Source: a virus. From it: 55,634 nucleotides of DNA. Made by a program: the position numbers and the translations under genes. Shown here piece by piece: positions 5,846 to 38,998 of the stretch; positions within the stretch are counted from its first letter, which is position 1; each line of letters starts with the position of its first letter. The notes under the pieces were generated by a model. The model ran no database searches, had not been told where the DNA came from, and was given only the letters and a program-made list of their open reading frames with translations. The DNA lies in IMG/VR virus record IMGVR_UViG_3300032092_000036, positions 1 to 55,634 of that record, one strand, 5' to 3'.

Positions 5846-7846
5846 ATGACTACCCTCGTACTAAAGAACTTCTCTGGCGAACTGCCAAATACGCCGGACT
5901 ACAAGTTGCCGGACATTAACGCACAGCAAGCGCTGTACTGCGACTTTGCCCAGAACGATCTGCGTCCCTTACGTGGGGGCACACTAATTAAGACCATGGT
6001 TAATACGGTCAGGGGCATTTATACCGAAGAGGGCACTAACTTCTACACGTGGCCAATTGAAACGTTTGTTGCCAAGGGGCCCGTAAACAACGACACCTAC
6101 GGCCGCATGTATTTCATGAACGCCAATGGGTTCAAAGTAGCCCCGTATTCAGGCGCTGGAGCCACAGGCGGTGAACCTGCAACGTCTTATCTTGTGGGTG
6201 TTCCTGCTCCTACGACTGCTCCTACACTGGTCTTAAAGCAACGTGCGTCACTGCCAGACTATCCAAGTATTAGCGTTACGACCACTGTGTGGTACGAGCT
6301 CAACGGTAAGCGGTATCAAGAAGGCGCAATGACTTCGTTTGTCGTTGTGTCCCCATGGAAGAAGTACACGTTTACCCCACCTACTCGTACTCTTTATAAC
6401 CCCGGGCAAGAAGCTAGTTCAACGTTTGAATCATCGGGGGAAAACACAGTTACAGTTACCACTGAAGCAGTAGCTCCTACCGGAACTCCTCCTGATGCAA
6501 AGTTGACTGCACAGATCATCATTAAAGATACGACAAACGCCAACAAAGAAATCTTTAACGTAACGGTTTCTTCTGGTGCTACGACGCCAACGCGGAGCAA
6601 TGCGTTTCCCGGCGGTGTAGAAGTCATGCTGTCTACGGATGGCGCATTGACTTTTGAGTGGGGCGTTGTTGAAACTCGGGCTTACGTGTACACCATGGTA
6701 AACTCATACCTTGAGGAATCTGCCCCATCTCTTGCTAACGTAGTGTCAGTAACCTATTTAGATTATGTCGAGGTAACAACGACCGTACCTACATTTACAG
6801 GGTATTCCCCTAGATCAGCCACAAACATCTACCGCACGTTTGGCACAAATCCTACGTACTTCAAGATTACAACAACTAACTTAGGCGGCAACGTTTACAA
6901 AGACGAAACTTTTAAAGCTTCTGACATTGGTGTGGCGCTGCCATCCCTTGACTGGGACATTCCTGAGACTGGCATGACTGGCCTTGTGCCGATGCCTAAC
7001 GGATTCTTTGCGGCGTATAAAGGCAACATGCTGTATTTCAGCGAGCCGTTTAGACCCCATGCATGGCCTTATGCTATGTCGTTTCCAAACAACATAACGG
7101 GAATCTGCCCCGATGCTCAGTCGTTAGTCGTTACCACTAACACCGGGGCTCACATGGTTCTTGGAAGCTTGCCATCTAATATGTCTCAGCAAAAGTTGCC
7201 GCTCCCTCAAGCTGGTATTGCTCAAAGGCTCATGGTGAACTTAGAAGGCGCTGTTGCTTATGCATCCGCTGATGGTATTGTGCTGGTGCAAGGCTCACAA
7301 TCAACAATGACTTTGAGCCAGAAGTTCTACTCTCGAGAAGATTGGCGGGCTACGTTTGCTACGATTGCTGACGACGCTCGGTTTGGCTACACAGATGGCT
7401 ATCTTGTCATGGTCTCTTCTCAAGAAGCCAAGGGCATTATCATTCGCTTGGACGAAGCTGCCGGCACACTGACTCAGTTCAACGAGACGTTTGACTCGAT
7501 GTTCTATCTGCCGATTACAGATACTCTGTATTACTCCAAGGGTGCAGCTGTGTATCGTTTGCGCGATGGCGCGGCAGCTTACTACACGTTGGATTGGTGG
7601 AGCAAAGAGTTTACCTTGCCGAACTTTACAAACTTTGGAGCGTTTTTTATTCGTTGCACTGCGTCTACCGTTGTAAGCATCTATGTTGATGGCGCTCTGT
7701 GGACTACATTTACAGCTTCGGCTACTGGTTATTACCGCTTACCTGCGGGTAAACGTGCCGTGCGCTGGTCTGTCCGAGTTCAAACAATCGGTAAGATTGA
7801 AGAAATTGCCATGGCCGAATCTATGTCGGAGTTCCGTAGTGTCTAA
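5846..7846 (+). CDS. Putative tail tube/nozzle protein (gp12-like position)
   Basis: 666 residues. The N-terminus (LKNFSGELPNTPDYKLPD, then INAQQALYCDFAQNDLRPLRGG) is a pattern I associate with large beta-rich tail proteins of environmental podoviruses; the rest is Thr/Tyr-rich beta structure with repeated VVTTNTGAHMVL- and FSEPFRPHAWP-type segments as in propeller domains. The place between the lysis genes and the tip/ejection genes parallels T7 tail tubular protein B. Virion role is confident; the specific nozzle assignment is inferred. A weak -10-like box lies directly upstream of the ATG. Confidence 0.65.
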   Translation: MTTLVLKNFSGELPNTPDYKLPDINAQQALYCDFAQNDLRPLRGGTLIKTMVNTVRGIYTEEGTNFYTWPIETFVAKGPVNNDTYGRMYFMNANGFKVAPYSGAGATGGEPATSYLVGVPAPTTAPTLVLKQRASLPDYPSISVTTTVWYELNGKRYQEGAMTSFVVVSPWKKYTFTPPTRTLYNPGQEASSTFESSGENTVTVTTEAVAPTGTPPDAKLTAQIIIKDTTNANKEIFNVTVSSGATTPTRSNAFPGGVEVMLSTDGALTFEWGVVETRAYVYTMVNSYLEESAPSLANVVSVTYLDYVEVTTTVPTFTGYSPRSATNIYRTFGTNPTYFKITTTNLGGNVYKDETFKASDIGVALPSLDWDIPETGMTGLVPMPNGFFAAYKGNMLYFSEPFRPHAWPYAMSFPNNITGICPDAQSLVVTTNTGAHMVLGSLPSNMSQQKLPLPQAGIAQRLMVNLEGAVAYASADGIVLVQGSQSTMTLSQKFYSREDWRATFATIADDARFGYTDGYLVMVSSQEAKGIIIRLDEAAGTLTQFNETFDSMFYLPITDTLYYSKGAAVYRLRDGAAAYYTLDWWSKEFTLPNFTNFGAFFIRCTASTVVSIYVDGALWTTFTASATGYYRLPAGKRAVRWSVRVQTIGKIEEIAMAESMSEFRSV

Positions 7847-9470
7847 CTTTATTCCACTACCACCGACGTATGCTGTCTCTGACCCTCAGGTGAGGGCGGT
7901 GCTTGATGTTCTTACTCGCAACATGCAAGTGGTTATTGATGCCGGAGGCGGGACAACAACGAACACAGCCCTAACATCAGTTGGCGGTGCATCTACGTTT
8001 GGCAGTGGAAACAGCAGTACAAACATCACCAATCTTGCTCCTTCTTACACGCTAGATACGCTGACAGCAGATTTAAAACGTGGTGCGGCTGAAGTAATTA
8101 CTGGTGTAACTAACGGCACAACCGTTATGAAGCTAGAACCTGCTGGCCAATATGTTGTTTTTCAGCACAGAGATGCTAGTATTCTTGGAACGGTAGGCGC
8201 TTACGCAGGCACTATCCGAACCGGCCTAGGTATTACATCCACGGGTATCTTGGGCGGATACAACCGCCAATCTGATGGTGCGTGGCAGACTACGTTTGCC
8301 ATTGAGTCTTCTACGGGTAATTTAACCCTGCTGGGCACTCTCCGAGCTGCCTCAATTATTTCTGTAGATGCATACTTAGGTTCTACTTTAGTCAGTGATG
8401 TAGTCACAAACTCGGCAGCCGTTACAACCAAACTAAACAAAAGCGCAGCGGATATTCTTAGCGGAACAATTACTTTTACCAGTGCTGGCGGTTTTAAGAC
8501 AGGCACAATTGTTGTGGATGGGTCAGGCAATGCTACAGGTGCTGGTGTTGCAATTACAAGCAGAGGTATTGTTGGGCGAACTGACGCGGCCACGACGTTT
8601 ACGATTGATGCTACAACCGGTGCTGCCACGTTTAAGGGTGACATTACTGGTGCGTCTGGTAACTTTGCAGGAAATGTAACTGCGGGTAACGTTCTCTCAA
8701 CAGGAGCCGTATTAGGCACAAACTCTGGCACTAACTTCTGGCTTCGAGGCTCTGATGGGGCGGCATATTTTGGTGGAGAAACAACCGTCAAAGGTAGGTT
8801 TACTGTCAGCGGTTCTTTTGCTCAATCAGGCTACGGTGACATTGGCGCAGCTTTTACAACCAACGCAGGTGGTGCTTCTTTATACGCTACAAACAGCGGA
8901 ACCGGCACTTCTATTTATGCCAGCTCAGGCACTGGAACAGCAGCTACTTTATACAATACTACCAACGGTACTTTTGGTTTGCCAGCCGTATGGGCGCAAA
9001 ACAATGGAACAGGTCTTGCATTACGAGCTACATCTTCGGGGCAGACTTGCACCTTTACAAGTACAGGTGGCGGCTATGCGTTTATTGCATTTAGCAACGG
9101 AGCAACTGGAGCGACAGCTTTTGTTCAAGGTGACTTTGCATTAGGTTATAGTAATAGCCGAGGTGATCCATGGATTATGCGAGCTCCGTCGACTTCGGTT
9201 GCAGCTGCCGCCGCTTCGTATTTAAACAGTGACGGTACTTGGAAAGCAATAAGTGCGTTTGCCACAACTGCTTTGGGAACAGATGCGTATGCTGCAAATA
9301 GATTAAATGGTTCTGCTGGCTCAAATGTTATGAGGTTTGTTCAAGGGACAGTAAGTGGAGCGGCAACAGCAGGATTCTCAGGAACCAATAAACCCGGCAG
9401 CGCAAGTTCAAATACTTGGATGCAGATTACAATTGATTCAACAACTCTTTATATACCTGTCTGGACTTAA
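7839..9470 (+). CDS. Tail tip/fibre protein with phage J-like C-terminal features
   Basis: 543 residues from GTG 7839, overlapping the previous gene by eight bases, with CGGAG upstream; the longer frame from 7683 is mostly in the neighbour gene. The N-terminus VSNFIPLPPTYAVSDPQVRA leads to Gly/Thr-rich beta repeats such as GNFAGNVTAGNVLSTG, WLRGSDGAAYFGGET and SGSFAQSGYGDIG. Such segments occur in central tip and side-fibre proteins of lambda J type. It likely contacts the host surface or closes the tail end. Confidence 0.65.
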   Translation: MSNFIPLPPTYAVSDPQVRAVLDVLTRNMQVVIDAGGGTTTNTALTSVGGASTFGSGNSSTNITNLAPSYTLDTLTADLKRGAAEVITGVTNGTTVMKLEPAGQYVVFQHRDASILGTVGAYAGTIRTGLGITSTGILGGYNRQSDGAWQTTFAIESSTGNLTLLGTLRAASIISVDAYLGSTLVSDVVTNSAAVTTKLNKSAADILSGTITFTSAGGFKTGTIVVDGSGNATGAGVAITSRGIVGRTDAATTFTIDATTGAATFKGDITGASGNFAGNVTAGNVLSTGAVLGTNSGTNFWLRGSDGAAYFGGETTVKGRFTVSGSFAQSGYGDIGAAFTTNAGGASLYATNSGTGTSIYASSGTGTAATLYNTTNGTFGLPAVWAQNNGTGLALRATSSGQTCTFTSTGGGYAFIAFSNGATGATAFVQGDFALGYSNSRGDPWIMRAPSTSVAAAAASYLNSDGTWKAISAFATTALGTDAYAANRLNGSAGSNVMRFVQGTVSGAATAGFSGTNKPGSASSNTWMQITIDSTTLYIPVWT

Positions 9471-13284: not shown

Positions 13285-16200
13285 ATGCCAATCATTGAAG
13301 GGTTTACTCCTTCCGGTAGATCGCAGAATGAAGCGCCCCGTGCGCTTGAAGGTTTTACATCGGTCTACAAAGTTCCCATGCGCGGTGGCGACGATGCCTC
13401 TGGCATGCGAAATCCGTTACAGTTTTTGAACGACACCGTTGTCACCACGGTCAACTCCGGTCTTGGCATTATCAAAGGCGTCAGCGATTTTGTTTCGGTG
13501 GACAATCCGCTTTCAAAGGGTCTGGAATACATTATCAAAGAGGGTGAAGAAACTTACAGCCCTCAAGTTAAACAAGCGGAAGAAGAGCTTGGTCAAGCCA
13601 TGGATGAAGGCGGCTTTGAAGCCGTCAAAGGTGTTGGCAAATACGTTCTATCGTCTCCGGTGCAGACTGCGGCCAAGATTGTTGGTGGCATAGGCCCTAT
13701 CGGTAAAGGCATTCAGGCTAGCAGGTATGCAGCGCAGGCTTTAAAGTTTACCCCTCGCGGTCAAGGTATTGCCGGCGTTTCTGCCGGTGCTACGTTGGGT
13801 GGAGCCGCCGCTGGCGGTGATGCTGCTTCTGATGCTTATAGCCAAGTGATGAACAGCCCCAATGTACCGGAAGATCAGCGAGAGGCTATGGCTCGCCAAG
13901 CCGCACGTCAGGCATCAGTTGTTCCTGCTATCTTGGGCGGTTTGTCGGGTGCTACCGGCCTTGAAAGAATTATGTCTGGCGCTCGTGGCATTACCCGCGA
14001 AGGTGTTCGTCGCACTGCTGGTAAAGAGTTCCTTACAGAAGGTATTGAAGAAGGCGGCACAAAAGCTTCTGCCAATATTGCTGCAATGCAATATGATCCC
14101 ACGATTGACCCAATGCGCGGTGTTGTGGGTGCAACTACTCTTGGCGGCATCATGGGCGCTGGCGGTGGTGCTGGCGTTGCGTATCTAAACAACCGTGCTT
14201 ATGAGTCCAATATCCTTGGCACGGCTAATCCATCAGCTGACCAAAGTTTGATGCTCGGCATCAACAAGGGTGCGGGTCTGTCTACACAGGAATTGATTAA
14301 CGTCAAAACGGGTGTTACTCCTGCGGCTACTAAAGCCCAGCGCGCTGCACGCGAAGCAGATATTAAAGCAGCTCTAAGTGAGCCATCCGGTCGTTATGTC
14401 ACCGATGAGAATGGCATTGAGCGCGAACTCACCATGGGTGAAGCCGCATCCCTTGGCTATGAGACTCCTGCACTGGGAGCACTTACATCTGCTGAAGCGC
14501 CATCTGGTGAGACAACATCTCAAGTTATTGCTGACGACCTGCAAGCTGCGGCTTCTAAAGTTGGTATTAGTTTAGTAAGTAGGGGTAAACCCGTACAAAA
14601 ACGTATTGATGCGTTTACCAAAGCTGTTGATTTACTTGGCAGTGGTGCTATTGATAAAGCTACATTTGACCAGACCATAGAGCAGTTGAAGAAAAATCGA
14701 TATGCTGAGATCAACAAATCTTTTGCACAGATTGAAGCTGACTTCCAAGAAAAGCAGCGTCTAGCTAATCAGCCTAAATTCCAACGGGCTCCAAAACCAG
14801 AGGATCAAAATGTCAGCACTGATATTTCCGCTACAGGAGGACTTGCACCGAGCGTGGATGCTGGGGGCGTTGACGTATCAGGAGGCTTGGCAGCTACAGG
14901 ATCAGCTCTTAATGTCGGACCCAGCAGCGATGTGGGTTCCCGTGTCGCAGGAATTAGCCCCGCAGGTAATGAAACTTCACTTCTCGGAAATGTTACCGGT
15001 AAATCACCTACCACTTTAACACTACGCGCTGGTGCGCCAGCTTCGGGCATGGCTCAGACTTCTTTGGAAGATCAATTAGCCATTGGGGAATTAACAGGTA
15101 ACGCTGCAGAAGCGCAAGCACTGACTGAGGAAGAAGCCGGCCAGCGCATGGACGTGACCGACACTGATGAATCCAGAGCGCAAGACATTAACGCTATCTT
15201 AGACAAAGCGTTTGAGAATTCTGAGGACAAAGCTCGTGACATTGAAATTGCCAAGATGTACCTCGAGGTTATGAAAAATGCCCCGCAAGGCTTCAAACAG
15301 AAAATTCAAACTGCCATCGGCAAAGAGTTTGGTGTAAAAGCCGGCGCGGTTCGTAAGATTGGTCAAACGCCTGCTCTCGTAGACGCCGCTGTATCCATGG
15401 GTATGACAAGGCAGCAAGCCCTTGATCTTTTGGAGATCAGTGATACTTCTAAAAATAAAGTTAGCACGACTGCTGGAGAGCAAGCAGGCGGCCTTGAGAC
15501 TGTGGCTACAGAACTTGGCGTTGATTTCCAAGAAAATGATTCTATTGGTTTTGGATACGACGATACCCGCACATGGTCTCAGAGCGTAAAAGGCGCTGGC
15601 GATACTGTCAACGCGACAGACGAAGCCATGGCCAACGCTATCTACACCATCTCGGAAAAAATTAGAAGTGTTGATGCGCTCGCAGACAAACTTCCGGCCA
15701 TTGCGGGAACTCTGCGTGAAATGAAAGCCAAACTTGAAGAGACTTTGGTAAAAACTATGCAAAACGTTGCAGGTCGGCTAAAACCCGGCAGCAAACCAAC
15801 GCCTAGAAAAACAAAAGCAAAAGAGGTTGTGGAAGACGAGACTAAGCTTTTGACAGATGAACAGGTAGCCTTGAACAAACAGCAGGAAGCTCGTCAAGCC
15901 GCTCGTGCCGCTAGTCGTAAAGGTTTGGAAGTTGGCGACACAGTACAGAATCCAAAGTTAGGTACAGGCACGGTTCAAAGCTTTTCCGGTGACGGCGACG
16001 CTACCATGGCAAAGATTGCTTTTCAAAGCGGTCAAACAAAAGACTTGATGCTGTCTGCAGCAAAGTTAGAAAAGATTGCTAGTGCGCCTGTCACTGAGAA
16101 AGCTCCGATCGCCGAAACGACAACGCCTAAGAAAACTAAGGCGGGTAAAACAAAGGCGCAGGTCACAGGTCGTGACGTGTGGGAAAATCTACAGAAAGAC

Positions 16201-19200
16201 ACTCCCGGTCTTGGCGACTATGACGGTTTGTCTAAGAGGGAAAAAGACTATGTAGAAGAAGTGGCTGCCCGCACCAACGGCGACTTTACTTTGGTATCTG
16301 AGCCTTCCATGGAAGTGGTAATTGATAACCACATAAACGAAGAGCAGACGGAAGACATTTACACGGAAGACTTTGAAGCTGATGACGGCACAGCCCGCTA
16401 TATGCGATCAGCTACTAGCCAAGAGTGGAAAGACAACGACGGCAAAACATTTAAAACGCAGCCAACTACTCTTGCCAATTTAAGTAAGTATCCCGGTGTT
16501 CTTAAGGGGTTAAAGCATCTTCAAGAGGCTGGCCTTATTTCAACAGCGCAAAACATTGATACGTGGTTAATCACTGATGCCAAAGTTCCATGGACCGGTA
16601 TGCACATGTTGGTCGACGGTAAAGATACTATTATTTTTACTCAGGCCGCTCTTGATGATGTCAAACTATCATTTGTCACGCTGACCCACGAGATTGGCCA
16701 TAGTGTTGACGAAGCCGGCCTTGCAGGAACAGGCATCTACTCAAGTGCTCCAGAATTAAATTTAACATTTAAGAATGGAAACTTAAAAGCTATTGGCCCT
16801 GTAACCCGAGAATTGGTAAATCATTTTCTAAGCGATCAAGATTCTCCTCTATCTGAACAACTGCAGTATCCCCTTGTCGATAATGACGGGTTAACGGCAG
16901 ACAATATGCGTGAAGAACTTTTTGCGCAACTGTACATGTTCAGTTCGATGAAAATTGGTCGTCAATATTTACGTGACAACTTGCCGCTGACCGCGGCTTT
17001 TATGGAGAGAACACATGCAAAAATTAAAAAAACCAATGCCAGCGCCCAGCCAGCCGGTGAAGTACAAAGTGGTGAGTCAGGACAAGTTCAAGATAGGGCC
17101 CAAATTCGCGAAGTTTCTGGACGGCAACTACGAGCCAACAAAGAAAAAATCGTAAATTCTAAAGAGGCAAGAACGGTCTCTTCGGTAGTTTCAGAAACGC
17201 TAAACGCGCTGATGTTTACCGAAGACTTGTTTAAGAAGGCAGTCAAATCTGGCATCAAATCTGCCAAAGATATGATGAACATCTACCGCGAGCGCACAAA
17301 CCTCGAGGGTCAGATTCAGCGTGACGTTGAGCGTGTTGCTTCTTTGTACAACAAAATTCCTACTAACGAGCGCGGTACTGGTGACGCAAGTGCCAACAGG
17401 TTTGTCTACGACATGACCCGAGAAAAGAAGTGGGGCTTTAAACCTACGTGGCGTACTGGCCAAAGTGGGTCGGTTACGATTGATCCTGCCATGCGCAAAC
17501 GTTGGGATGGGTTGAGCCAAGAATCTCGTGACTGGACTGAGGCTGTGTTCGCCCACGGTGATGCCATGCTCAAGCTGAAAAAGCAGACATTGATGGACGC
17601 CACGAACTCTGAGTACGATTCTCTGATTAAGGGTGCGCAAGCCGCAGGCAATACAGCCAAAGTAGCTAAGTTTGAAGCTGCTAAAAAGTCTCAATTAAAG
17701 CAGTTTGCTCGCCTATTTGCAGTATCTGAGTTTGCCCCATACGCCCCCATGAAACGTTTTGGCGATCACGTTGTTGTGGCTAAATCGCAGAAATACATCA
17801 ATGCGTCTGAGGCTGAGCAAACTAAATTGCAAAACGATCCTGACCACTACCATGTAAGTTTTGCTGAGTCTAATTCATCAGCTTTTAAGTTAGAGAGTGA
17901 GTTGCGCGCCGAAGGCAGTTTTGCAAACGTAGAAACTTTTAAGAAAGAAGACGCCGGCAAAAATGGTATGTACGGTGGTTTGTTGCAAGCGTTTACTAAA
18001 TTGCGCGGTGATTTAGATTCTGAGTTAGCTAACGCGACTGATCCTGCAGAGCGTAATACTCTTGCTAAAGCCCGTGCCGTGGTAGCCGATTTGTATTTGG
18101 CATCTTTGGCTGAGAACAGTGCTCGTAAATCTGAGATGCGCCGCAAGGGTGTCGCGGGCGAGATTGATATGTTGCGCTCATTTGCCACACAGGGTCGTGC
18201 GGACGCGCAGTTCTTGGCTACTGCCAAGTACACCCCACAGATGACAGAAGCTATTAATAAGATGCGCCGTGAGGTTAAAGATGGCGGTTCTCGTTTAGAC
18301 AAGTCTCAATTGTTTAATGAGATCATGGCTCGCCACAATCAATCGTTGACGTACGATGCTTCTGTCTGGAGTGATATTGCTGCTAAGGCTAGCCGTGTTA
18401 CATCCGTTTGGTTCTTGGCTACCAGCCCCATGTATTATTTGCAGAACTTGACACAACCGCAAATGATATCAGTTCCATTTATGGCAGGTCGTCATAACTA
18501 TTTTAAAACTCAAACGGCTTTAATAAAAGCGTACACCCAGCTAGGCGGTTTAAATAAAAACAAAAAGATAGATGAGCCGTTTGACTTCAACAACGTGCCT
18601 GCGGATGTGCGCACGATGATTTCCACGTTGGTAGATCGTGGCCGTATTGATATTGGCATGGAGACCGAGCTTGGTCAATTCCAAGTTGAGGGCGAAAGCA
18701 AAGCTGCCCAAGGTATCAACAAAGTTGATCGTGTTCTGCGTTCTGTTGGTCAAAAAATGGAAGCGATTAATCGCGTATCAACTGCCATTGCTGCGTATCG
18801 CTTGGAGTTAGCTAAGACAGGCGACGTTAAGAAAGCTACTGAGTACGCCGATGAGGTGATCTCTCAGACTCACGGAGACTACACCCGCAACAATGCGCCT
18901 CGTGCGTTCAATACCAATGTGGGTAAAGTTGCACTGCAGTTCCGCAAGTTCCAGTTAATTCAGTTAACTCTGTTAACTAAGTTGGTGGCAAACTCTGTCA
19001 AAGGTGCAACTAAAGAAGAACGCGTGGCTGCTCGTACAGCATTAGCGTTTACCCTAGGTCATACTGCAGCACTGGCAGGACTTGTAGGTATGCCCGGATT
19101 TGCGGCCATTTCGTTTATTCTAAAAGGCTTGGCTGATATGTTTGGTGACGACGAAGAGCCTTACAACTTAGAAAAAGAATTGTATGAAGCCATGGTCTCG

Positions 19201-19908
19201 CAGTTTGGTGAAGATGCCGCGACGCTAATTACTCGCGGTGCGCCGGCTGCTGCAGGCGTGGACTTGTCAGGCAAGTTAGGTATGGGTAACACTTTGTCTG
19301 TCTTGCCGTTCACTGACTTTGAATTGTCTAAGGCTGGCGTGGCTGAGACAGGGTTTGCCGCGGTGTTTGGAGCTTCCGGTGCACTGGCACAACGTTTTGC
19401 CGAGGGTTTAAAGCAGATTTCCGGAGGTGAATACTATCGCGGGTTGGAAAAACTAGCACCTAAGGGTTTTTCAGATGCCATGAAAGCTGTTCGTGAAAAT
19501 GAGCAGGGCGTGACTCGTTTGAATGGTGATGTGCTTGTGCCGGCTGATGAGATTGCTGCATGGGAATCTACGGCTAAGTTCTTTGGTGTGCCAGTAACGT
19601 CTGACACCAAGCGCCGTTTCTTGACAGATATAAAGTTTGAAAACGAAAAAGCTTTTAAAGATAAAGCTGCCAAGCTGAAGAACCAATATACTAAGGCTCG
19701 CCGTGAGGGTGATGACACCACTGCCGTTCGTGAGAAGTGGGCAAAGCTTCAGGATGAGCGAGTCAGTGAAGGATTTAAACGTGAGCCATTGTCTAATCTG
19801 CTGCAAGCTCCACAGGCACAGGCTAAGCGCGAACGCGAGACAGCAGGCGGCATTCAGTTTAACAAACAGACACGTCGATTTACCGAAGAACTTGTAGGAG
19901 AACAGTGA
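13285..19908 (+). CDS. Giant ejection protein with zinc-metallopeptidase motif and LPD38-like C-terminal domain
   Basis: 2207 residues, strong GGGGG ribosome site. Residues about 100-310 hold several Ala/Gly-rich hydrophobic stretches (GGIMGAGGGAGVAYL) that could insert in membranes. A zincin motif THEIGHSVDEAG lies at 1134-1145 (HExxH at 1135-1139) and EE at 1210-1211 could supply the third zinc ligand. From about 1690 onward the sequence (ATSPMYYLQNLTQPQMI; VALQFRKFQLIQLTLLTKLV) resembles the large polyvalent-protein domain LPD38 found in phage giant proteins. Position corresponds to T7 gp16, but I see no transglycosylase motif. It is probably ejected with DNA and may cut host proteins. Confidence 0.75.
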   Translation: MPIIEGFTPSGRSQNEAPRALEGFTSVYKVPMRGGDDASGMRNPLQFLNDTVVTTVNSGLGIIKGVSDFVSVDNPLSKGLEYIIKEGEETYSPQVKQAEEELGQAMDEGGFEAVKGVGKYVLSSPVQTAAKIVGGIGPIGKGIQASRYAAQALKFTPRGQGIAGVSAGATLGGAAAGGDAASDAYSQVMNSPNVPEDQREAMARQAARQASVVPAILGGLSGATGLERIMSGARGITREGVRRTAGKEFLTEGIEEGGTKASANIAAMQYDPTIDPMRGVVGATTLGGIMGAGGGAGVAYLNNRAYESNILGTANPSADQSLMLGINKGAGLSTQELINVKTGVTPAATKAQRAAREADIKAALSEPSGRYVTDENGIERELTMGEAASLGYETPALGALTSAEAPSGETTSQVIADDLQAAASKVGISLVSRGKPVQKRIDAFTKAVDLLGSGAIDKATFDQTIEQLKKNRYAEINKSFAQIEADFQEKQRLANQPKFQRAPKPEDQNVSTDISATGGLAPSVDAGGVDVSGGLAATGSALNVGPSSDVGSRVAGISPAGNETSLLGNVTGKSPTTLTLRAGAPASGMAQTSLEDQLAIGELTGNAAEAQALTEEEAGQRMDVTDTDESRAQDINAILDKAFENSEDKARDIEIAKMYLEVMKNAPQGFKQKIQTAIGKEFGVKAGAVRKIGQTPALVDAAVSMGMTRQQALDLLEISDTSKNKVSTTAGEQAGGLETVATELGVDFQENDSIGFGYDDTRTWSQSVKGAGDTVNATDEAMANAIYTISEKIRSVDALADKLPAIAGTLREMKAKLEETLVKTMQNVAGRLKPGSKPTPRKTKAKEVVEDETKLLTDEQVALNKQQEARQAARAASRKGLEVGDTVQNPKLGTGTVQSFSGDGDATMAKIAFQSGQTKDLMLSAAKLEKIASAPVTEKAPIAETTTPKKTKAGKTKAQVTGRDVWENLQKDTPGLGDYDGLSKREKDYVEEVAARTNGDFTLVSEPSMEVVIDNHINEEQTEDIYTEDFEADDGTARYMRSATSQEWKDNDGKTFKTQPTTLANLSKYPGVLKGLKHLQEAGLISTAQNIDTWLITDAKVPWTGMHMLVDGKDTIIFTQAALDDVKLSFVTLTHEIGHSVDEAGLAGTGIYSSAPELNLTFKNGNLKAIGPVTRELVNHFLSDQDSPLSEQLQYPLVDNDGLTADNMREELFAQLYMFSSMKIGRQYLRDNLPLTAAFMERTHAKIKKTNASAQPAGEVQSGESGQVQDRAQIREVSGRQLRANKEKIVNSKEARTVSSVVSETLNALMFTEDLFKKAVKSGIKSAKDMMNIYRERTNLEGQIQRDVERVASLYNKIPTNERGTGDASANRFVYDMTREKKWGFKPTWRTGQSGSVTIDPAMRKRWDGLSQESRDWTEAVFAHGDAMLKLKKQTLMDATNSEYDSLIKGAQAAGNTAKVAKFEAAKKSQLKQFARLFAVSEFAPYAPMKRFGDHVVVAKSQKYINASEAEQTKLQNDPDHYHVSFAESNSSAFKLESELRAEGSFANVETFKKEDAGKNGMYGGLLQAFTKLRGDLDSELANATDPAERNTLAKARAVVADLYLASLAENSARKSEMRRKGVAGEIDMLRSFATQGRADAQFLATAKYTPQMTEAINKMRREVKDGGSRLDKSQLFNEIMARHNQSLTYDASVWSDIAAKASRVTSVWFLATSPMYYLQNLTQPQMISVPFMAGRHNYFKTQTALIKAYTQLGGLNKNKKIDEPFDFNNVPADVRTMISTLVDRGRIDIGMETELGQFQVEGESKAAQGINKVDRVLRSVGQKMEAINRVSTAIAAYRLELAKTGDVKKATEYADEVISQTHGDYTRNNAPRAFNTNVGKVALQFRKFQLIQLTLLTKLVANSVKGATKEERVAARTALAFTLGHTAALAGLVGMPGFAAISFILKGLADMFGDDEEPYNLEKELYEAMVSQFGEDAATLITRGAPAAAGVDLSGKLGMGNTLSVLPFTDFELSKAGVAETGFAAVFGASGALAQRFAEGLKQISGGEYYRGLEKLAPKGFSDAMKAVRENEQGVTRLNGDVLVPADEIAAWESTAKFFGVPVTSDTKRRFLTDIKFENEKAFKDKAAKLKNQYTKARREGDDTTAVREKWAKLQDERVSEGFKREPLSNLLQAPQAQAKRERETAGGIQFNKQTRRFTEELVGEQ

Positions 19909-30225: not shown

Positions 30226-32130
30226 CTACTTAGCGTCGCCGTAGCAATCAGCTATGTCACCTTCAGACCACGTAACCAACTCAGGCCACCACGATGGCGG
30301 TGTACGCATAATACCCTGCAATTCTTTCAGTAGTGTGTCGGCGTAGTTTTCGGGCACTACATAAACAAGCTCATCATGCACCATCAGTGTTGGCGACATT
30401 TGCGTGCGCTTACGAAACTCAAGAGCGTTACCCGCAATCACATCACGTGCAAGGGCTTGGACAAGATTCTCTACACCTTTCCCGGCATAGATACGTGCCT
30501 TGTGTCGGCCTGCTCCATACCACCATTCGTGCTTGCCGTTGTCTACCTCTTTGCGTAGTTCAGGGTAGTAAATGCGTCGACCTGATGGCAGACGAACCGC
30601 CTTGTGTTCAGTAACGCACATACCCCATGGATCGATGGCAGTCTCGTTGCCTTGCATCAGATCAATCAGACTCTTCTGAAATGATTTCCACCCATCCACA
30701 ATGTCCGAATACTGCTCACGCCAGTCGGTAACGATACTCAATGACTCTGCATCTGTAAGCTCTAAGCCACCCATGAGTTTGGCTACACGCTTGAACGTTG
30801 GCGCGCCGGCCCCAAAACCTAGACCTAACTGAGCGACCTTGGCTAGTTGTCGTTGGTCTTTAGTTACCGCTTCTGGTTCAATGTCGTACCTTGCAGCAGC
30901 AAACGCTCTGTACAAGTCGGCTTCGGCATCGCTCGCATACATCTCCATAGATGACGGAACCTTCCACAAGTAGTGGTTTACCCTTAGTTCGATGCCGGAC
31001 AGATCGGCCACGATAACTTTGTAGCCCTTGGGGGCAAGCAGGCTCATGCGTAATGCGTCAGATGGCTTAGGGTTTTTACCTATACGCGGTAGATTCTGCA
31101 TGTTGTATTGCTCACCCGACCAACGCCCTGTTGTATCCGCACCACAGTATCTAAGCGGTACAGGCAACTTACCACCGCAGGCATCAGCCGCCCGAATGAA
31201 CGCTTCTAGGCGTGTCTCAAGCAGCGTGGACTTAACCTCAAGCCTAGCCCTTGCAGCCGCAGCAACGATTGGGTTAGGGTGTTCTTGAAGCTTGATGAAC
31301 TCCTCGTCGGTCTTAGCCAATGCAGGTGTCATCTTATCGGGGTTAGTCGGCGACTGTTTCATGGGAGGCTCAACGCCAAGGCTCGTAAGCAACTCGGAGA
31401 ACTTGGCCGAACTAGCCAGTTGGGTACGCACTTGCTCTTCGATAGATACTTCGTCCACGATATCGTCGATGCCGATCTGCTCGGCTAGCTCACGTAGTGA
31501 GCGACTCTTCTCGGCTTTAACGGACTCCTGTGCCTCCCGGATTAATCTGTAGTCGAGATTGAACTTAGGCTCCACAAGCATTCGTGTAGTCATATCGATC
31601 TGAACCATCTCGGCCTTGGAGATACCCTTGGCCAACTCTTTGAACAACTTCGCACACAGGTCTGTATCGACCTTGTTGTACTCTTTCATGGACTCAAGCT
31701 CGGATGGCGTGAAGTCGGCTAAGCGTTTACCCTTAGTATTCGTGGCTTCAAGGCTTAGCTTTGCACCAATGTTGAACTCTTTGCTCAAGTTCTTCAGTGA
31801 TACACCGCAGGTCTTTTTGTACTTGGACATGGCCATGGCTTGCGTACACCCCCACATCTTGGGCTTGATGCCAAAGCGCCATGCAAGGATCATGGAATCA
31901 AAGCCGGACATGTTGTGCCCAATGGCAATCTTGTCAGACCAGTCAAGACTATGCAAAGCTTTTCGGATTTTGTCTTCGCCAAAAAATACATCGGTCGGGA
32001 AGTTAGCTGCCTTGATAGCCACCGCCTGTATTTCTGTATCAGGGTGCATGACGTATTCTGTCGGGGGCATCCTTGTCAGTGAGTGAGTAGTAGACCAATA
32101 GGTCTCAAAGTCTATATAGACAGGTGTCAT
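30226..32130 (-). CDS. Family A DNA polymerase with 3'-5' exonuclease
   Basis: 634 residues, AGGAA site. Exonuclease motifs YIDFET, GHNMSGFD and YNKVDTD are intact, so it should proofread. Polymerase motif A is VADLSGIELR, motif B is R427-QLA-K431-VAQ-L435-GLG-F439-G and motif C is MVHDEL. The residue matching E. coli Phe762 is Leu435 and that matching Tyr766 is Phe439. This enzyme replicates the genome with the primase-helicase. It overlaps the upstream zinc-ribbon gene by four bases. Confidence 0.95.
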   Translation of the reverse strand: MTPVYIDFETYWSTTHSLTRMPPTEYVMHPDTEIQAVAIKAANFPTDVFFGEDKIRKALHSLDWSDKIAIGHNMSGFDSMILAWRFGIKPKMWGCTQAMAMSKYKKTCGVSLKNLSKEFNIGAKLSLEATNTKGKRLADFTPSELESMKEYNKVDTDLCAKLFKELAKGISKAEMVQIDMTTRMLVEPKFNLDYRLIREAQESVKAEKSRSLRELAEQIGIDDIVDEVSIEEQVRTQLASSAKFSELLTSLGVEPPMKQSPTNPDKMTPALAKTDEEFIKLQEHPNPIVAAAARARLEVKSTLLETRLEAFIRAADACGGKLPVPLRYCGADTTGRWSGEQYNMQNLPRIGKNPKPSDALRMSLLAPKGYKVIVADLSGIELRVNHYLWKVPSSMEMYASDAEADLYRAFAAARYDIEPEAVTKDQRQLAKVAQLGLGFGAGAPTFKRVAKLMGGLELTDAESLSIVTDWREQYSDIVDGWKSFQKSLIDLMQGNETAIDPWGMCVTEHKAVRLPSGRRIYYPELRKEVDNGKHEWWYGAGRHKARIYAGKGVENLVQALARDVIAGNALEFRKRTQMSPTLMVHDELVYVVPENYADTLLKELQGIMRTPPSWWPELVTWSEGDIADCYGDAK

Positions 32131-34157: not shown

Positions 34158-34329
34158 ATGGTGTTTCGCGTCGCTCGATCGGCCTACGCAAAAGCCATTT
34201 GTCACCAAGACGCATCACTGCGCGTACCCACTGGCGTTGGTTGTGTTGATTGATATGATCGGGAACCATATCGTTGTTGTACAAGGTACGCGCTCTCTGA
34301 CGCAATTCAAATTTACTGGTAGGTGTCAT
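34150..34329 (-). CDS. 59-residue basic protein
   Basis: ATG 34329 overlaps the stop of the upstream Nmad5-like gene as ATGA; stop TAA 34152-34150. The product MTPTSKFELRQRARTLYNND and the rest (QRQWVRAVMRLGDKWLLRRP) is strongly basic and helical, suited to nucleic-acid binding. No family recognised. Its stop codon lies within a 12-base palindrome. Confidence 0.65.
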   Translation of the reverse strand: MTPTSKFELRQRARTLYNNDMVPDHINQHNQRQWVRAVMRLGDKWLLRRPIERRETPYP

Positions 34330-34994
34330 GCTGTGATTCCTGATAGTCTTGCAGCAATAGCTGCTGCGGTTAAGGTGTCCACTGGGGTGTCTTCAAGGAT
34401 TTCTTTCTCACGAACCTTGCGCTCGACCTTACGCTCCGCACGCTCGATGTATTCCTTGGGGATGTACATCTTCACGCCCGGCCATAGCTTGAGTGCCTCA
34501 TTAAGAGACTTGCACTTGCCAAGGAACGCCATGATATCACCCTCGACTTTAGTCCAACGAGCCTTGATTTCTGCGTTAAGTTCGATGCGCTCAAGGTAGT
34601 TCAAGACATTCTGCACACCTGCCATGTCTACATTGGCTTCAAGGTAAGCCTTCTTGCAAGAAATCTTAGGCTCATTCCAACGATCATTGTTGGGGCGATT
34701 GGTCACATTCTGATTTCTAAACGTGATGGCATGAACAACTTTATTGCCGGCATCGTCGATTGGTACATGAACATTCAACGTGGGACTTGTGTTTGTGGCC
34801 AACCATTCAGCAGGCATCTGATCCTTTAGATGCAAGTGACTGCCCCACATGGCCTTAGTCAGGAACCCTGATGTGTCTAACTCGATGGGCTTGCCAACCT
34901 CGGCGTTGTTGGTGATAACCTCAGCTTCTCTCATGCGCTTGATAACGTTAGAGACTTGACTTGAGAGTTCTTGTGTGATGTATACGGTAGCCAT
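34326..34994 (-). CDS. Nmad5-like phage protein (DNA-modification-associated)
   Basis: 222 residues. The C-terminal half (VEGDIMAFLGKCKSLNEALK, LWPGVKMYIPKEYIER) resembles the Nmad5 family, a domain predicted to associate with phage nucleotide-modification systems. The N-terminal part is helical then beta (GFLTKAMWGSHLHLKDQMPA). No other DNA-modification enzyme is seen in the window, so the role here is uncertain. It ends in an ATGA overlap. Confidence 0.5.
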   Translation of the reverse strand: MATVYITQELSSQVSNVIKRMREAEVITNNAEVGKPIELDTSGFLTKAMWGSHLHLKDQMPAEWLATNTSPTLNVHVPIDDAGNKVVHAITFRNQNVTNRPNNDRWNEPKISCKKAYLEANVDMAGVQNVLNYLERIELNAEIKARWTKVEGDIMAFLGKCKSLNEALKLWPGVKMYIPKEYIERAERKVERKVREKEILEDTPVDTLTAAAIAARLSGITA

Positions 34995-35045: not shown

Positions 35046-35195
35046 TTAGTCGGTTTGCGATGCCTCGAGAAAGGTATCTACCGCTTCTTTTAGTTGGGTT
35101 CGTTGCTCTTGTTGTATGCCCGGCGCTAGCGCCTCACTGCATCGTTGCAAGAGATAGTTGTAGCTATCAATTAGTCCTTTGAGGTCTTCATTCAT
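35046..35195 (-). CDS. 49-residue helical peptide
   Basis: ATG 35195 overlaps the VWA gene stop as ATGA, with GGAAG seven bases upstream; stop TAA 35048-35046. The product MNEDLKGLIDSYNYLLQRCS continues as an amphipathic helix. It is the last gene of the operon, just before a terminator. Function unknown; it could be a small partner of the VWA protein. Confidence 0.6.
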   Translation of the reverse strand: MNEDLKGLIDSYNYLLQRCSEALAPGIQQEQRTQLKEAVDTFLEASQTD

Positions 35196-36304
35196 ACAGT
35201 TTCTTCCATAGTAAAGTGGATTGTGTCGCCGTAAGGCGCTTCCACATCACTAGAAATACACCATACGACAGGGTAGGCAGGGCTGTTACTCTCACTGAAA
35301 CTGGTGTAACCATCTGTCAAACAGACGAATACCTCAGGCTCAATACCTTCCTTGGCAAGGAACTCGAAGCCGTATTCCATGTCAGTGCCACCGCCTGAGT
35401 AGAACTCTAACTTAAATTCGTCGCCACGTTCAAACACTTTGTGCAAGCGAACACCTGTATCTACATACAGTAAGTGTACACGCTCGGGGTTGCATTGCTC
35501 CAGAATCCGAGCCAAGTGACCTTGGTAGTACGACATCTCTTGCTGTGTAATAGAGCCGGATACGTCGATTTGGATGACAACCTCGCCCATCTCTTGGACA
35601 CGGCCTACGCTAGGCAAGTAGTCTTTGAAGCGACGGTTGGGGCGAGCCCATGAATAGTCTCCACGCACATAGCTTGTCATGTAACGCTCGAGTACGTCAT
35701 ACCATGGTGTGCCGGGGTCAATCAACTCAGCGATGATCTTAGCCAATGCACCGGGCAACTTACCTTGAGCCTTAGCTGCTTGCGCTGCTTGGGCTATCTC
35801 GACACGCGTTTCAACGTCAATGCGATCCGCCTCCTCGGGAGTGAGTGGTGAGCCTCGCTCGATAATGTCGTCGCCTGTACCGCCGGGACCGGGGCCATCA
35901 CCGTCATCCTCAGGCAAGTCGTTGTAGATAGCATCCGTTGTTCTGTCCTTGGAGCCGGGCATGTCCACGCATCCCTTGATTGGATCGCCGATGCCGGCAT
36001 CCTTGAGCATGTCATTGATCCACGCATCGCCTGCAATGTTCCAACGCTTAGGGGTACGAGAGCCACGACGCAAGGCATGCTGACCCATGATGTGGCCAAC
36101 CTCGTGAGCCAGTACGAACACGATCTCGTCGACGCTGAGTGTCTCGAACCACTTGGGGTTGATGTATATCTGACCGCGCTGATCGACTGCTGCAGTTGGG
36201 ATGCTCTCGTCTTCGATGAGTTGGCGCTTCATGAGCATGGATGCAAAGAAGGGGTGTTGTGTCACGATGGACACTTTAGCTTTGTCTAGTGTAGTGATTG
36301 CCAT
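35192..36304 (-). CDS. CobT/DUF2201-like protein: metallopeptidase-like plus VWA domain
   Basis: 370 residues from ATG 36304 with GGAAAG upstream; a longer frame to 36400 lies in the neighbour gene. Residues 55-90 carry FVLAHEVGHIMGQHALRR (HEVGH at 67-71, extra His76), the DUF2201 zinc-peptidase-like motif. A flexible acidic Gly/Pro linker (about 135-150) leads to a VWA domain with MIDAS residues Asp247-Val-Ser-Gly-Ser, GGGTDMEYG and CLTDGYTSF. Such proteins partner MoxR-type ATPases, as CobT with CobS or ViaA with RavA; the ATPase is encoded in the same operon at 38006. Confidence 0.85.
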   Translation of the reverse strand: MAITTLDKAKVSIVTQHPFFASMLMKRQLIEDESIPTAAVDQRGQIYINPKWFETLSVDEIVFVLAHEVGHIMGQHALRRGSRTPKRWNIAGDAWINDMLKDAGIGDPIKGCVDMPGSKDRTTDAIYNDLPEDDGDGPGPGGTGDDIIERGSPLTPEEADRIDVETRVEIAQAAQAAKAQGKLPGALAKIIAELIDPGTPWYDVLERYMTSYVRGDYSWARPNRRFKDYLPSVGRVQEMGEVVIQIDVSGSITQQEMSYYQGHLARILEQCNPERVHLLYVDTGVRLHKVFERGDEFKLEFYSGGGTDMEYGFEFLAKEGIEPEVFVCLTDGYTSFSESNSPAYPVVWCISSDVEAPYGDTIHFTMEETV

Positions 36305-36306
36305 GA

Positions 36307-36867
36307 TTAGTCTTTCCAGTTGTGTTGGTTGATACGGATGGGAGAATCTTGATTGAGCATGTTGGATACTTGCTTTGCATTGAATACATCGGATGGGCAA
36401 CGAGCTTTGACGAACAGATCACGCATCATCTGCACATACACTTTGTCGCTATGGAATCGAATGTGACTAGCTTCACCGGACAAAATAGCATCTATGTCTT
36501 GTTGCACTCTAGCCTTCGATCGTTGTATCCATGTGTGATGATCGTTGCCTGTCTGAGTTAGCATGTACGCTGCAAAATCAGCCTTGATCAAGGCACACGC
36601 TTCCTCACGAGCCTCTTCGCTAGTGAACTGCACATGCAAGCCCCAGTAGTCACCACGGATATAGGGTAAGTTGAACTGCTCACAAAATACCTTGGCAAGG
36701 CGCGATGCATGAGATGACCAACCACCGGTGATGTTGCCCGACTCAATTTGTTTCTGAATCGATCTACGCATCCTCGTGGTGATCTGCGTTGGGTTGAAGT
36801 AAATGTCGGCTGTTACACCGGCAGTCGTTAGCATCCTAGATGCCTGATAGAGATTTGGTCGCATCAT
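36307..36867 (-). CDS. Hypothetical 186-residue protein of the ATPase/VWA operon
   Basis: ATG 36867 with AAGGAA at good spacing. The sequence (RPNLYQASRMLTTAGVTADI, SHASRLAKVFCEQFNLPYIR, HSDKVYVQMMRDLFVKARCP) suggests a helical soluble protein. No motif recognised. It separates the DUF3150-like and VWA genes by only a few bases on each side and is likely part of the same complex. Confidence 0.75.
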   Translation of the reverse strand: MMRPNLYQASRMLTTAGVTADIYFNPTQITTRMRRSIQKQIESGNITGGWSSHASRLAKVFCEQFNLPYIRGDYWGLHVQFTSEEAREEACALIKADFAAYMLTQTGNDHHTWIQRSKARVQQDIDAILSGEASHIRFHSDKVYVQMMRDLFVKARCPSDVFNAKQVSNMLNQDSPIRINQHNWKD

Positions 36868-36875
36868 TGTGTTCC

Positions 36876-37751
36876 TTAAAAGTTGTATGCTGATAAACGC
36901 TCAGTTGCTTCGTCTAGCTTCTTGCGAGCCTCGACACGAGCATTGGCTGAGCCCTTGATGATCTCCACGTTCTGCAGATAGCTACTGGCAAGTTGCTCGA
37001 TCGCATTGATCTCTTGCACCAACTCAGGTGATGGATCGATAGCCAACTTACGCGCCGTTGTGCATCCCTCAAGCACATTCTCCATGAGTGAATTGTGGAA
37101 GCGTTCACCCTTGTTGCCTTGGTACTCGCCAAGTCGTCTCGTTAGATCAGACAATGGTTTGAGCATGCGGTTGATGGTGTCCTCACGTGCCATGGATGCA
37201 AGCTCAGCTTCAGCCCTGTCGAACTCAGCCAAGTCTTCCTCGGACAGATCGAATAGGAAGTGACGCTTGTCAGGCATTGGTGTGAACCTCAAGTCACTGC
37301 CCACCGCATTACGGAACTGCTCTGCCGTTGGGTACTCATCGCGGTTAGCTCTGCCTGACGCATAGCCACTGTTTCGGAACATAATGTCGTCGCTTACGAT
37401 TTGGTCGTAGTCCTGATAGCATTGATCGGCTAGCTTCTCCACCACGGCCACACGTTGCTTCATCTCTTGTGCATACTCAAAGTACAGCGTAGAGGGGAGC
37501 ATCCTTGGACCTGCATCGATGTGGGGTATGGTGTTCTGCTTGTGATACGCATAGACCTCGTTGTGCTTTTTCATCAGCTTGTTGATGGGACTGTTGATAT
37601 CACGGAACAATTTGTAGATTGCCGTCAGTGAGTTGTCGTTGTACTGCGTTTGCAGTTGGTTGGTCAGCGCCTTGTCGCGCTTGGTGAGTGGTGCACGACG
37701 TTGCGTGAGCTTGACAAGAATTACCTTGTCGGCGAGTTTTGCGTGTTGCAT
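36876..37751 (-). CDS. DUF3150-like protein of the ATPase/VWA operon
   Basis: 291 residues, AAAGG site. The segment NTIPHIDAGPRMLPSTLYFE followed by YAQEMKQRVAVVEKLADQ and a helical remainder matches the DUF3150 pattern (TxPWxDxGxRxLPxxxYFxY), a family found beside CobS/MoxR ATPases and CobT-type VWA proteins in phages and plasmids. The function is not established; it may be a substrate adaptor. Confidence is limited by recognition from memory. Confidence 0.6.
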   Translation of the reverse strand: MQHAKLADKVILVKLTQRRAPLTKRDKALTNQLQTQYNDNSLTAIYKLFRDINSPINKLMKKHNEVYAYHKQNTIPHIDAGPRMLPSTLYFEYAQEMKQRVAVVEKLADQCYQDYDQIVSDDIMFRNSGYASGRANRDEYPTAEQFRNAVGSDLRFTPMPDKRHFLFDLSEEDLAEFDRAEAELASMAREDTINRMLKPLSDLTRRLGEYQGNKGERFHNSLMENVLEGCTTARKLAIDPSPELVQEINAIEQLASSYLQNVEIIKGSANARVEARKKLDEATERLSAYNF

Positions 37752-37760
37752 AGATACCTT

Positions 37761-38009
37761 TCATTGAGTTAGTAGGATGACTGCTTGTGCCCAGTCTTTG
37801 GCTTGTTGCACACTAGAAAAGAACTTCTGTTGCTTGCTTGCAATGATGCGAGCCCTCCACCTTCCAGTCCAGTAAGGCTCGGGTTCATCTTCGTCGTATT
37901 TAATAAAGGGTGAAATAACCGCCATGCGTTGCGGTATCTTTTGATCGGGGTCTTGCTTGTACAAGAGTGTGTGGAAATCTTCCGGCCTGTCCATCCACAT
38001 GTAGCTCAC
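37761..38009 (-). CDS. Hypothetical 82-residue protein
   Basis: GTG 38009 overlaps the ATPase stop as GTGA with GAGG seven bases upstream; ATG 38000 is an alternative start. The product (VSYMWMDRPEDFHTLLYKQD, GRWRARIIASKQQKFFSSVQ) is mixed alpha/beta. No motif. Placed between ATPase and DUF3150-like genes. Confidence 0.6.
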   Translation of the reverse strand: MSYMWMDRPEDFHTLLYKQDPDQKIPQRMAVISPFIKYDEDEPEPYWTGRWRARIIASKQQKFFSSVQQAKDWAQAVILLTQ

Positions 38010-38998
38010 ATCAGCACCTCTGCATTGGCAGTAGACCATTCGATAAACGCTCGTGTCGATGTAATCTTAGGCGCTAGCTTGATGGAGTCCTTGATGGTCA
38101 TCACCGCAAACTCGGCAGGCAGTCGTGCCGTGTAAGACATGATCCGATCGATGTTGTCAACAGTTGCTTTACGTGCAAGCGCACCGGTAATCGCATACCG
38201 CACAGCAGGGTCCGTTGGAACCTGCGCACCCTTGGGGTCAAGCAAGAGAGCATCGATGTTAGGTAGTTGAGAGTAGATACGACGGAAGCCAACATACTCA
38301 GCAGCTGCACCCTCACCGACCTCACCGATCACATTCTCCAAGAACAACGATGCATCCAATGAATCGGGTACAAGGTTGACACGCTCCCATGAACGAGGCG
38401 TTGGGTTGGCAAAGCGATTGGCATCAAAGTCAGAGATCAGGCCGGGTCTGAATCGCAAGAACTGAATCAGGTCAGTCTTCCAATCATTGTCCAGTGCATA
38501 CGCGGTCAGGTCTTCGAGATTCTCTTGGAAGTCAAAGCGACGTGTACGATTGGCTAGCTTGGATGTGATGCGATTAGCACCTGACTTGTCCTCGGTACGA
38601 TTACCAGTGGCAATCTTGAACAGTTGATCTGACAGTTGCAAGTTACCGGCTCGGTTGTCATAGATTACACCGCACAATGCATTCTGCATGGGGATCGGAG
38701 CATCGGACAACTCTTCCAAGATCAGACCGACACGGCCAGTGCGTAGCTTGTAGAACTCTTCGGGCGGAACCCACCGAGTGAACTCGCCAGTGTTGTTAGG
38801 TGTACCGAGTACATCCACAGGGTCACGCAATGAAGCCGTGAACTCCACGACATGATCTAGGTTAAGCTCTCGCATGATCTCACGAGCACAAGCTGACTTG
38901 CCACCACCGGGAGCACCGAGGATGAATGGCACGATCTTGTTACCCTGAGGGGCTTTGAACTGCTCGACAACAGATTTCTTGATGTTTGAATAACGCAT
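38006..38998 (-). CDS. MoxR/CobS-like AAA+ ATPase
   Basis: 330 residues, AAGGAA site. Walker A FILGAPGGGKS (Gly28-Ser35), Walker B GLILEELSDAP, sensor 1 IATGNRTED and arginine-finger region KLANRTRRFDF place it in the MoxR branch of AAA+ proteins (RavA, CobS, CbbQ, GvpN). These hexamers unfold or remodel partners, often together with a VWA protein delivering metal or assembling complexes. Its VWA partner (35192) and DUF3150-like gene lie downstream in the same operon. The leader carries CACCACTCACTCACTT. Confidence 0.9.
   Translation of the reverse strand: MRYSNIKKSVVEQFKAPQGNKIVPFILGAPGGGKSACAREIMRELNLDHVVEFTASLRDPVDVLGTPNNTGEFTRWVPPEEFYKLRTGRVGLILEELSDAPIPMQNALCGVIYDNRAGNLQLSDQLFKIATGNRTEDKSGANRITSKLANRTRRFDFQENLEDLTAYALDNDWKTDLIQFLRFRPGLISDFDANRFANPTPRSWERVNLVPDSLDASLFLENVIGEVGEGAAAEYVGFRRIYSQLPNIDALLLDPKGAQVPTDPAVRYAITGALARKATVDNIDRIMSYTARLPAEFAVMTIKDSIKLAPKITSTRAFIEWSTANAEVLM

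Follow-up and report, generated by a model that had tools for sequence, protein, structure and literature searches.

A MoxR ATPase, DUF3150, and metallopeptidase-VWA gene cassette kept in order among related phages and also present on plasmids

The stretch of DNA analyzed here, referred to as the window, comes from IMG/VR as a virus record of 55.6 kb and by gene content is a podovirus-like phage. Genes for the terminase, portal, major head protein, and tail lie on the plus strand, and a run of minus-strand genes encodes a DUF927/primase-helicase, an SNF2 helicase, a PD-(D/E)XK exonuclease, and DNA polymerase A. The upstream part of this replication-gene run (38998 to 35046, minus strand) is a cassette of ORFs, all of which were found where the original prediction had placed them. 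These encode, in order, a 330-aa MoxR-type AAA+ ATPase (38006 to 38998), a small ORF (37761 to 38039), a 291-aa DUF3150-family protein that is the third core gene of the cassette (36876 to 37751), a 186-aa orphan (36307 to 36867), a 370-aa protein with a metallopeptidase domain (DUF2201_N) and a VWA domain (DUF2201), hereafter the VWA protein (35192 to 36304), and a 49-aa ORF (35046 to 35195) that shares the bases ATGA with the VWA stop. For the VWA gene, the start codon is ATG 36304, which lies two bases past the orphan stop. Purine-rich, ribosome-binding-like sequences stand before most cassette starts and are absent before ATG 38039. The small ORF is present, but the 82 residues once given for it match no start codon; it is 92 aa long from ATG 38039 or 79 aa long from ATG 38000. 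Directly downstream of the cassette and on the same strand is a 222-aa gene (34326 to 34994) that the original prediction had not included, and the next conserved same-strand landmark is DNA polymerase A (30226 to 32130; Pfam DNA_pol_A, 8e-23), whose strand and order are the same in relatives. Elsewhere in the window, a 2207-aa protein (13285 to 19905) matches a DarB-like antirestriction family in its C-terminal part, and two long ORFs (5846 to 7846 and 7683 to 9470) have about 160 bases in common; the start of the second may lie further in.

The first gene product belongs to the MoxR AAA+ ATPases by its Walker A motif, sensor residues, and MoxR-like sequence. It matches PHROG 1297 with an E value of 2e-59 and Pfam AAA_5 only weakly (E value of 0.0095, under the cut-off), and the closest solved sequences are the AAA modules of Midasin. 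The Walker A motif GAPGGGKS and residues N133, R151, R202, and W204 are kept in 18 MoxR homologues. The Walker B motif is LILEEL in the virus group of the window, with EE where most others have DE. Compared with L014, the MoxR gene has a dN of 0.22 and a dS of 1.69. The earlier description of this protein as MoxR/CobS-like holds for MoxR, through PHROG 1297 and the motifs, and is unsupported for CobS, whose model has no match in the window.

The VWA protein matches DUF2201_N at 171.5 bits (Pfam gathering score, 23.2; E value of 3.7e-50), the VWA-like DUF2201 at 74.7 bits (gathering score, 26.4; E value of 8.8e-21), and PHROG 1314 with an E value of 1.8e-96. We aligned 22 VWA proteins from the window group, other phages, and plasmids, in all of which H68-E69-x-x-H72, D94, and the MIDAS residues D248, S250, S252, T308, and D332 are invariant; D94 is a plausible third zinc ligand. 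The HEVGH and MIDAS motifs of the original prediction are therefore real, as is its DUF2201 assignment, whereas the CobT part of the call has no model match. The dN and dS values against L014 are 0.20 and 1.42, respectively. Among solved structures, only short matches were found (MJ1213, an M48 peptidase, and one flagellin-annotated chain). In a tree of VWA proteins, those from loci with all three core genes clustered, but the deep branches are long and poorly resolved, so the tree does not decide the number of origins. PHROG 1314 is labeled an HNH endonuclease, and RefSeq phage records such as that of N4 gp25 (NC_008720) bear the label; family searches detected no HNH domain in the VWA protein of the window.

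The Pfam search returned no match between the third core protein and PF11348, so its DUF3150-like assignment was examined independently with a profile built from viral contigs only. This phage-only HMM recovered DUF3150 proteins of cyanophages, plasmids, and cells, mostly near full length, with E values of 6e-16 to 3e-30, and hhalign against the plasmid and cellular members gave a probability of 99.7% over 279 columns. One cellular homologue (L068), found by the phage profile at an E value of 3e-30, itself matches PF11348 at 25 bits, with a cut-off of 24.9. The protein is accordingly a DUF3150 member by full-length profile homology, as originally proposed. Its AlphaFold (AF2) model is mainly helical (pLDDT of 76.5) and resembles viral models, one of them named DUF3150; a fold search against the PDB gave nothing significant. 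The gene has a dN of 0.37 and a dS of 2.06 against L014.

Searches of IMG/VR with the VWA protein yielded 43 loci, and searches with DUF3150 yielded 12. The order MoxR-DUF3150-VWA is kept without exception in all related viral contigs long enough to show it, with 41 spanning MoxR to DUF3150 and 43 spanning DUF3150 to VWA, which is the conservation in related phages that the original prediction had called for. The full viral order, on one strand, is MoxR, DUF3150, VWA, the 222-aa gene, and DNA polymerase where the contig reaches it. Because relatives in IMG/VR keep this order and MoxR, DUF3150, and VWA all have dN values far lower than their dS values, the cassette is not a chance arrangement. 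A chance neighborhood of unrelated early genes, for which the variable small genes inserted between the core genes might speak, is extremely unlikely, as the order is also the same in distant phages, plasmids, and bacteria.

The spaces between the core genes behave as variable slots. They are nearly empty in 5 of 41 loci (MoxR/DUF3150) and 5 of 43 loci (DUF3150/VWA), and at their largest they hold about 2 kb and about 1.3 kb, respectively, with several unrelated ORF families. The small ORF occupies the first slot in the window; it matches no Pfam or PHROG family, and its 92-aa form is conserved among the closest relatives only. The second slot is most often filled by the 186-aa orphan family, which is fast evolving, has no Pfam or PHROG match, and is missing or swapped in some relatives. 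Its AF2 model is confident (pLDDT of 89.3), and a fold search against the PDB gave no significant match. The orphan is 51% identical to its counterpart in L004 (2183 to 2719) while both neighboring genes are 98% identical, which suggests from sequence comparison that the L004 allele was replaced by recombination. The 49-aa ORF is limited to the virus group of the window, where it is 28 to 100% identical in many relatives, and its dN is lower than its dS against L006 to L008. Of the set first envisaged, MoxR, DUF3150, and VWA make up the conserved order; some relatives lack the 186-aa gene or carry another in its place, and the small ORFs are group limited. The 222-aa gene, which in this group of viruses is conserved alongside the cassette, follows VWA in all relatives whose flank reaches it. 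We considered it as a relative of the nucleotide-modification-associated domain Nmad5, but the signal was too weak (best E value of 0.013, in 3 of 20 members). Among the loci examined, neither the 222-aa nor the 186-aa protein has a relative outside the virus group.

Beyond these contigs, at an E value of 1e-5, 547 phage records have a VWA relative and 664 have a MoxR relative, mostly N4-like phages along with some Asteriusvirus-type jumbo phages. DUF3150 is undetected in nearly all phages that carry the MoxR-VWA pair. A single-sequence DUF3150 search found only three cultured phage records, of equal length and with the same gene order, which are probably one phage; the trio is present in cyanophages MinM2 and Pag-Yong1. 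On plasmids, DUF3150 occurs in 44 records, mainly of Burkholderiales, and its genus tallies equal those of VWA (Burkholderia, 13; Paraburkholderia, 8; Cupriavidus, 8; Caballeronia, 4; Variovorax, 4). The trio lies together in all four Burkholderiales plasmid regions that were read, and several of these plasmids are conjugative. Full matches occur at about 60 bacterial loci, which span many phyla and in most cases hold only the pair; cellular contigs with the trio are L068, L071, L072, L074, and L075, and a MoxR-DUF3150 pair lies at the contig edge of L125. Outside the window group, MoxR is next to or near DUF3150 in 11 of the 12 loci that were read, and VWA is as well in nearly all. The exception is a "Candidatus Manganitrophus" plasmid (L146; CP114559.1), in which DUF3150 sits beside another AAA ATPase, DUF1257, and DUF2997, and neither MoxR nor VWA lies within 6 kb. 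This case and the pair-only phages indicate that DUF3150 is not essential to the MoxR-VWA pair. The pair itself is an already known phage family, represented by N4 gp24/gp25 and by jumbo phages, which the original prediction had not recognized. Neither DUF3150 nor the trio containing it came up in the open literature searched, and the three-part version common to phages and plasmids seems to be undescribed.

Viral cobST genes have been widely proposed to serve cobalamin synthesis (PMC8651126; PMC11288001), and a pair mimicking CobS-CobT might join host CobN and so raise cobalt insertion and B12 supply. In roseophage CRP-7, the pair shares the genome with a gene annotated as a B12-dependent reductase. 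However, neither the CobS (TIGR01650) nor the CobT (TIGR01651) model, both of which match Caulobacter as a control, has a hit in the window, in MinM2, CRP-7, or N4, or in three related contigs, and the window and 12 related contigs are negative with models for CobN and ribonucleotide reductase. The VWA protein also bears a peptidase domain with an intact HExxH motif, and we regard such mimicry as very improbable. With all four models negative, a cobalamin role was rejected, and as far as these models test it, the original prediction that no cobalamin target is visible in the window is right. The ribonucleotide reductase annotation of CRP-7 (L152, 35552 to 38170) is split over two ORFs. No RavA-ViaA, NorQD, CbbQO, or GvpN model was listed in the NCBIfam search at an E value of ≤1, although the library may not include each of these models.

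MoxR proteins typically team with VWA partners to remodel their targets. We hold with intermediate confidence that the cassette encodes a three-subunit AAA+ remodeling machine, possibly proteolytic, that acts early and in which DUF3150 is the target-holding third subunit. By analogy with NorQ-NorD and Midasin, from which the ring and docking geometry are taken, MoxR would form the ATPase ring, and the DUF2201 protein would be the VWA partner, docking on the ring through its VWA/MIDAS end and presenting its N-terminal zincin-type metallopeptidase domain to the target. DUF3150 would be a helical third subunit, or adaptor, that selects or holds the target, a role like that of the third component in ternary MoxR-vWA systems (PMC7159879). 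Made along with the replication genes, the machine may act early in infection, remodeling and possibly cleaving a protein complex of the host or the phage. We infer complex formation, proteolysis, the adaptor role, and this timing from the protein families and active-site residues, the gene order, the trio shared with plasmids and bacteria, the DUF3150 homology, the matching plasmid tallies, the location among replication genes, and the mechanism of NorQ-NorD, in which the ring takes a VWA finger into its pore and twists the partner by hydrolyzing ATP (PMC13036017). Counting against it are DUF3150 without the pair, the pair without DUF3150, the lack of a solved relative for the DUF3150 fold, the EE form of Walker B, and the gene location in phage S-TIM5.

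The location of the genes bears on a role in virion assembly or maturation, in which the pair would act as a chaperone-protease helping to fold and process structural proteins. Iyer et al. proposed virion assembly for the pair of group 2.2 jumbo phages in 2021 (PMC7824862), an analogy can be drawn with Acidianus two-tailed virus, and in S-TIM5 the pair exceptionally lies near Hsp20 and virion genes. However, in the window, N4, CRP-7, and Pag-Yong1, four phages whose genes form two divergent runs, the cassette or pair is kept on the replication-gene side, opposite the virion genes. The trio is also found on conjugative plasmids, which make no virion, so virion assembly is unlikely to be the general function of the module. 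The virion role that the original prediction had entertained is thus disfavored, and a role on a host complex or in replication is the favored direction.

A more specific host target, namely a defense or transcription complex dismantled on entry, would make the cassette a counter-defense or host-takeover device. It is common to lytic phages and conjugative plasmids, variable small genes fill the slots between its core genes, and its neighbors in Pag-Yong1 are annotated as a SAM lyase and an anti-CRISPR-like protein. Several of those Pag-Yong1 annotations look unreliable, however, and pairs also occur in contigs of many bacterial phyla. PADLOC, which tests for defense rather than counter-defense, found no defense-system match (only a P-loop match to IetA at an E value of 0.01), and membership in a known anti-phage defense system was rejected on that result. 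We consider the counter-defense reading rather unlikely. A bolder version of the three-subunit machine, which we offer as speculative and improbable, would be a MIDAS-gated, ATP-driven metalloprotease with DUF3150 as its dedicated substrate adaptor, forming a new class of AAA+ protease with which lytic phages and conjugative plasmids dismantle a host complex on entry, and whose specificity is altered by the slot genes.

Similar viral pairs are often labeled as cobalamin genes or HNH endonucleases. The intact metallopeptidase site of the pair, the third conserved subunit in some lineages, and the spread over plasmids and phages together provide a concrete, testable alternative and grounds for revisiting these labels.

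Several known systems resemble the cassette in part. NorQ-NorD, RavA-ViaA, and CbbQ-CbbO likewise combine a MoxR AAA+ protein with a MIDAS-bearing VWA partner, but to our knowledge these partners are without the DUF2201 metallopeptidase domain and without DUF3150, and their targets are known. Although an entire phage family has N4 gp24 and gp25 among its core genes, we know of no function for them. This pair, among the core genes of N4-like viruses (PMC7650795), consists of an adjacent MoxR AAA+ protein and metallopeptidase-VWA protein upstream of a helicase and DNA polymerase, as in the cassette; in N4 (Schitoviridae), however, no DUF3150 was detected between or beside the pair, and identity is only about 24 to 29%. 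Group 2.2 jumbo phages have the same two components with the metallopeptidase N-terminal to the vWA domain (PMC7824862), but no third subunit is described, the genomes are much larger, and virion assembly is proposed. The VMAP/iSTAND ternary conflict systems also add a dedicated third component to MoxR and vWA (PMC7159879); by description, that component is VMAP or iSTAND and effectors are C-terminal on the vWA protein, whereas the cassette has DUF3150 and an N-terminal peptidase. Synechococcus phage MinM2 and Planktothrix phage Pag-Yong1 differ in their slot genes and show 24 to 30% identity, and relatives of the 222-aa and 186-aa proteins were not found there, but the two phages share the gene order, including one small ORF behind MoxR and further small ORFs ahead of VWA. 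The Burkholderiales plasmid trio is without phage replication genes and in some plasmids is beside type IV secretion genes, yet it consists of the same three genes in the same order.
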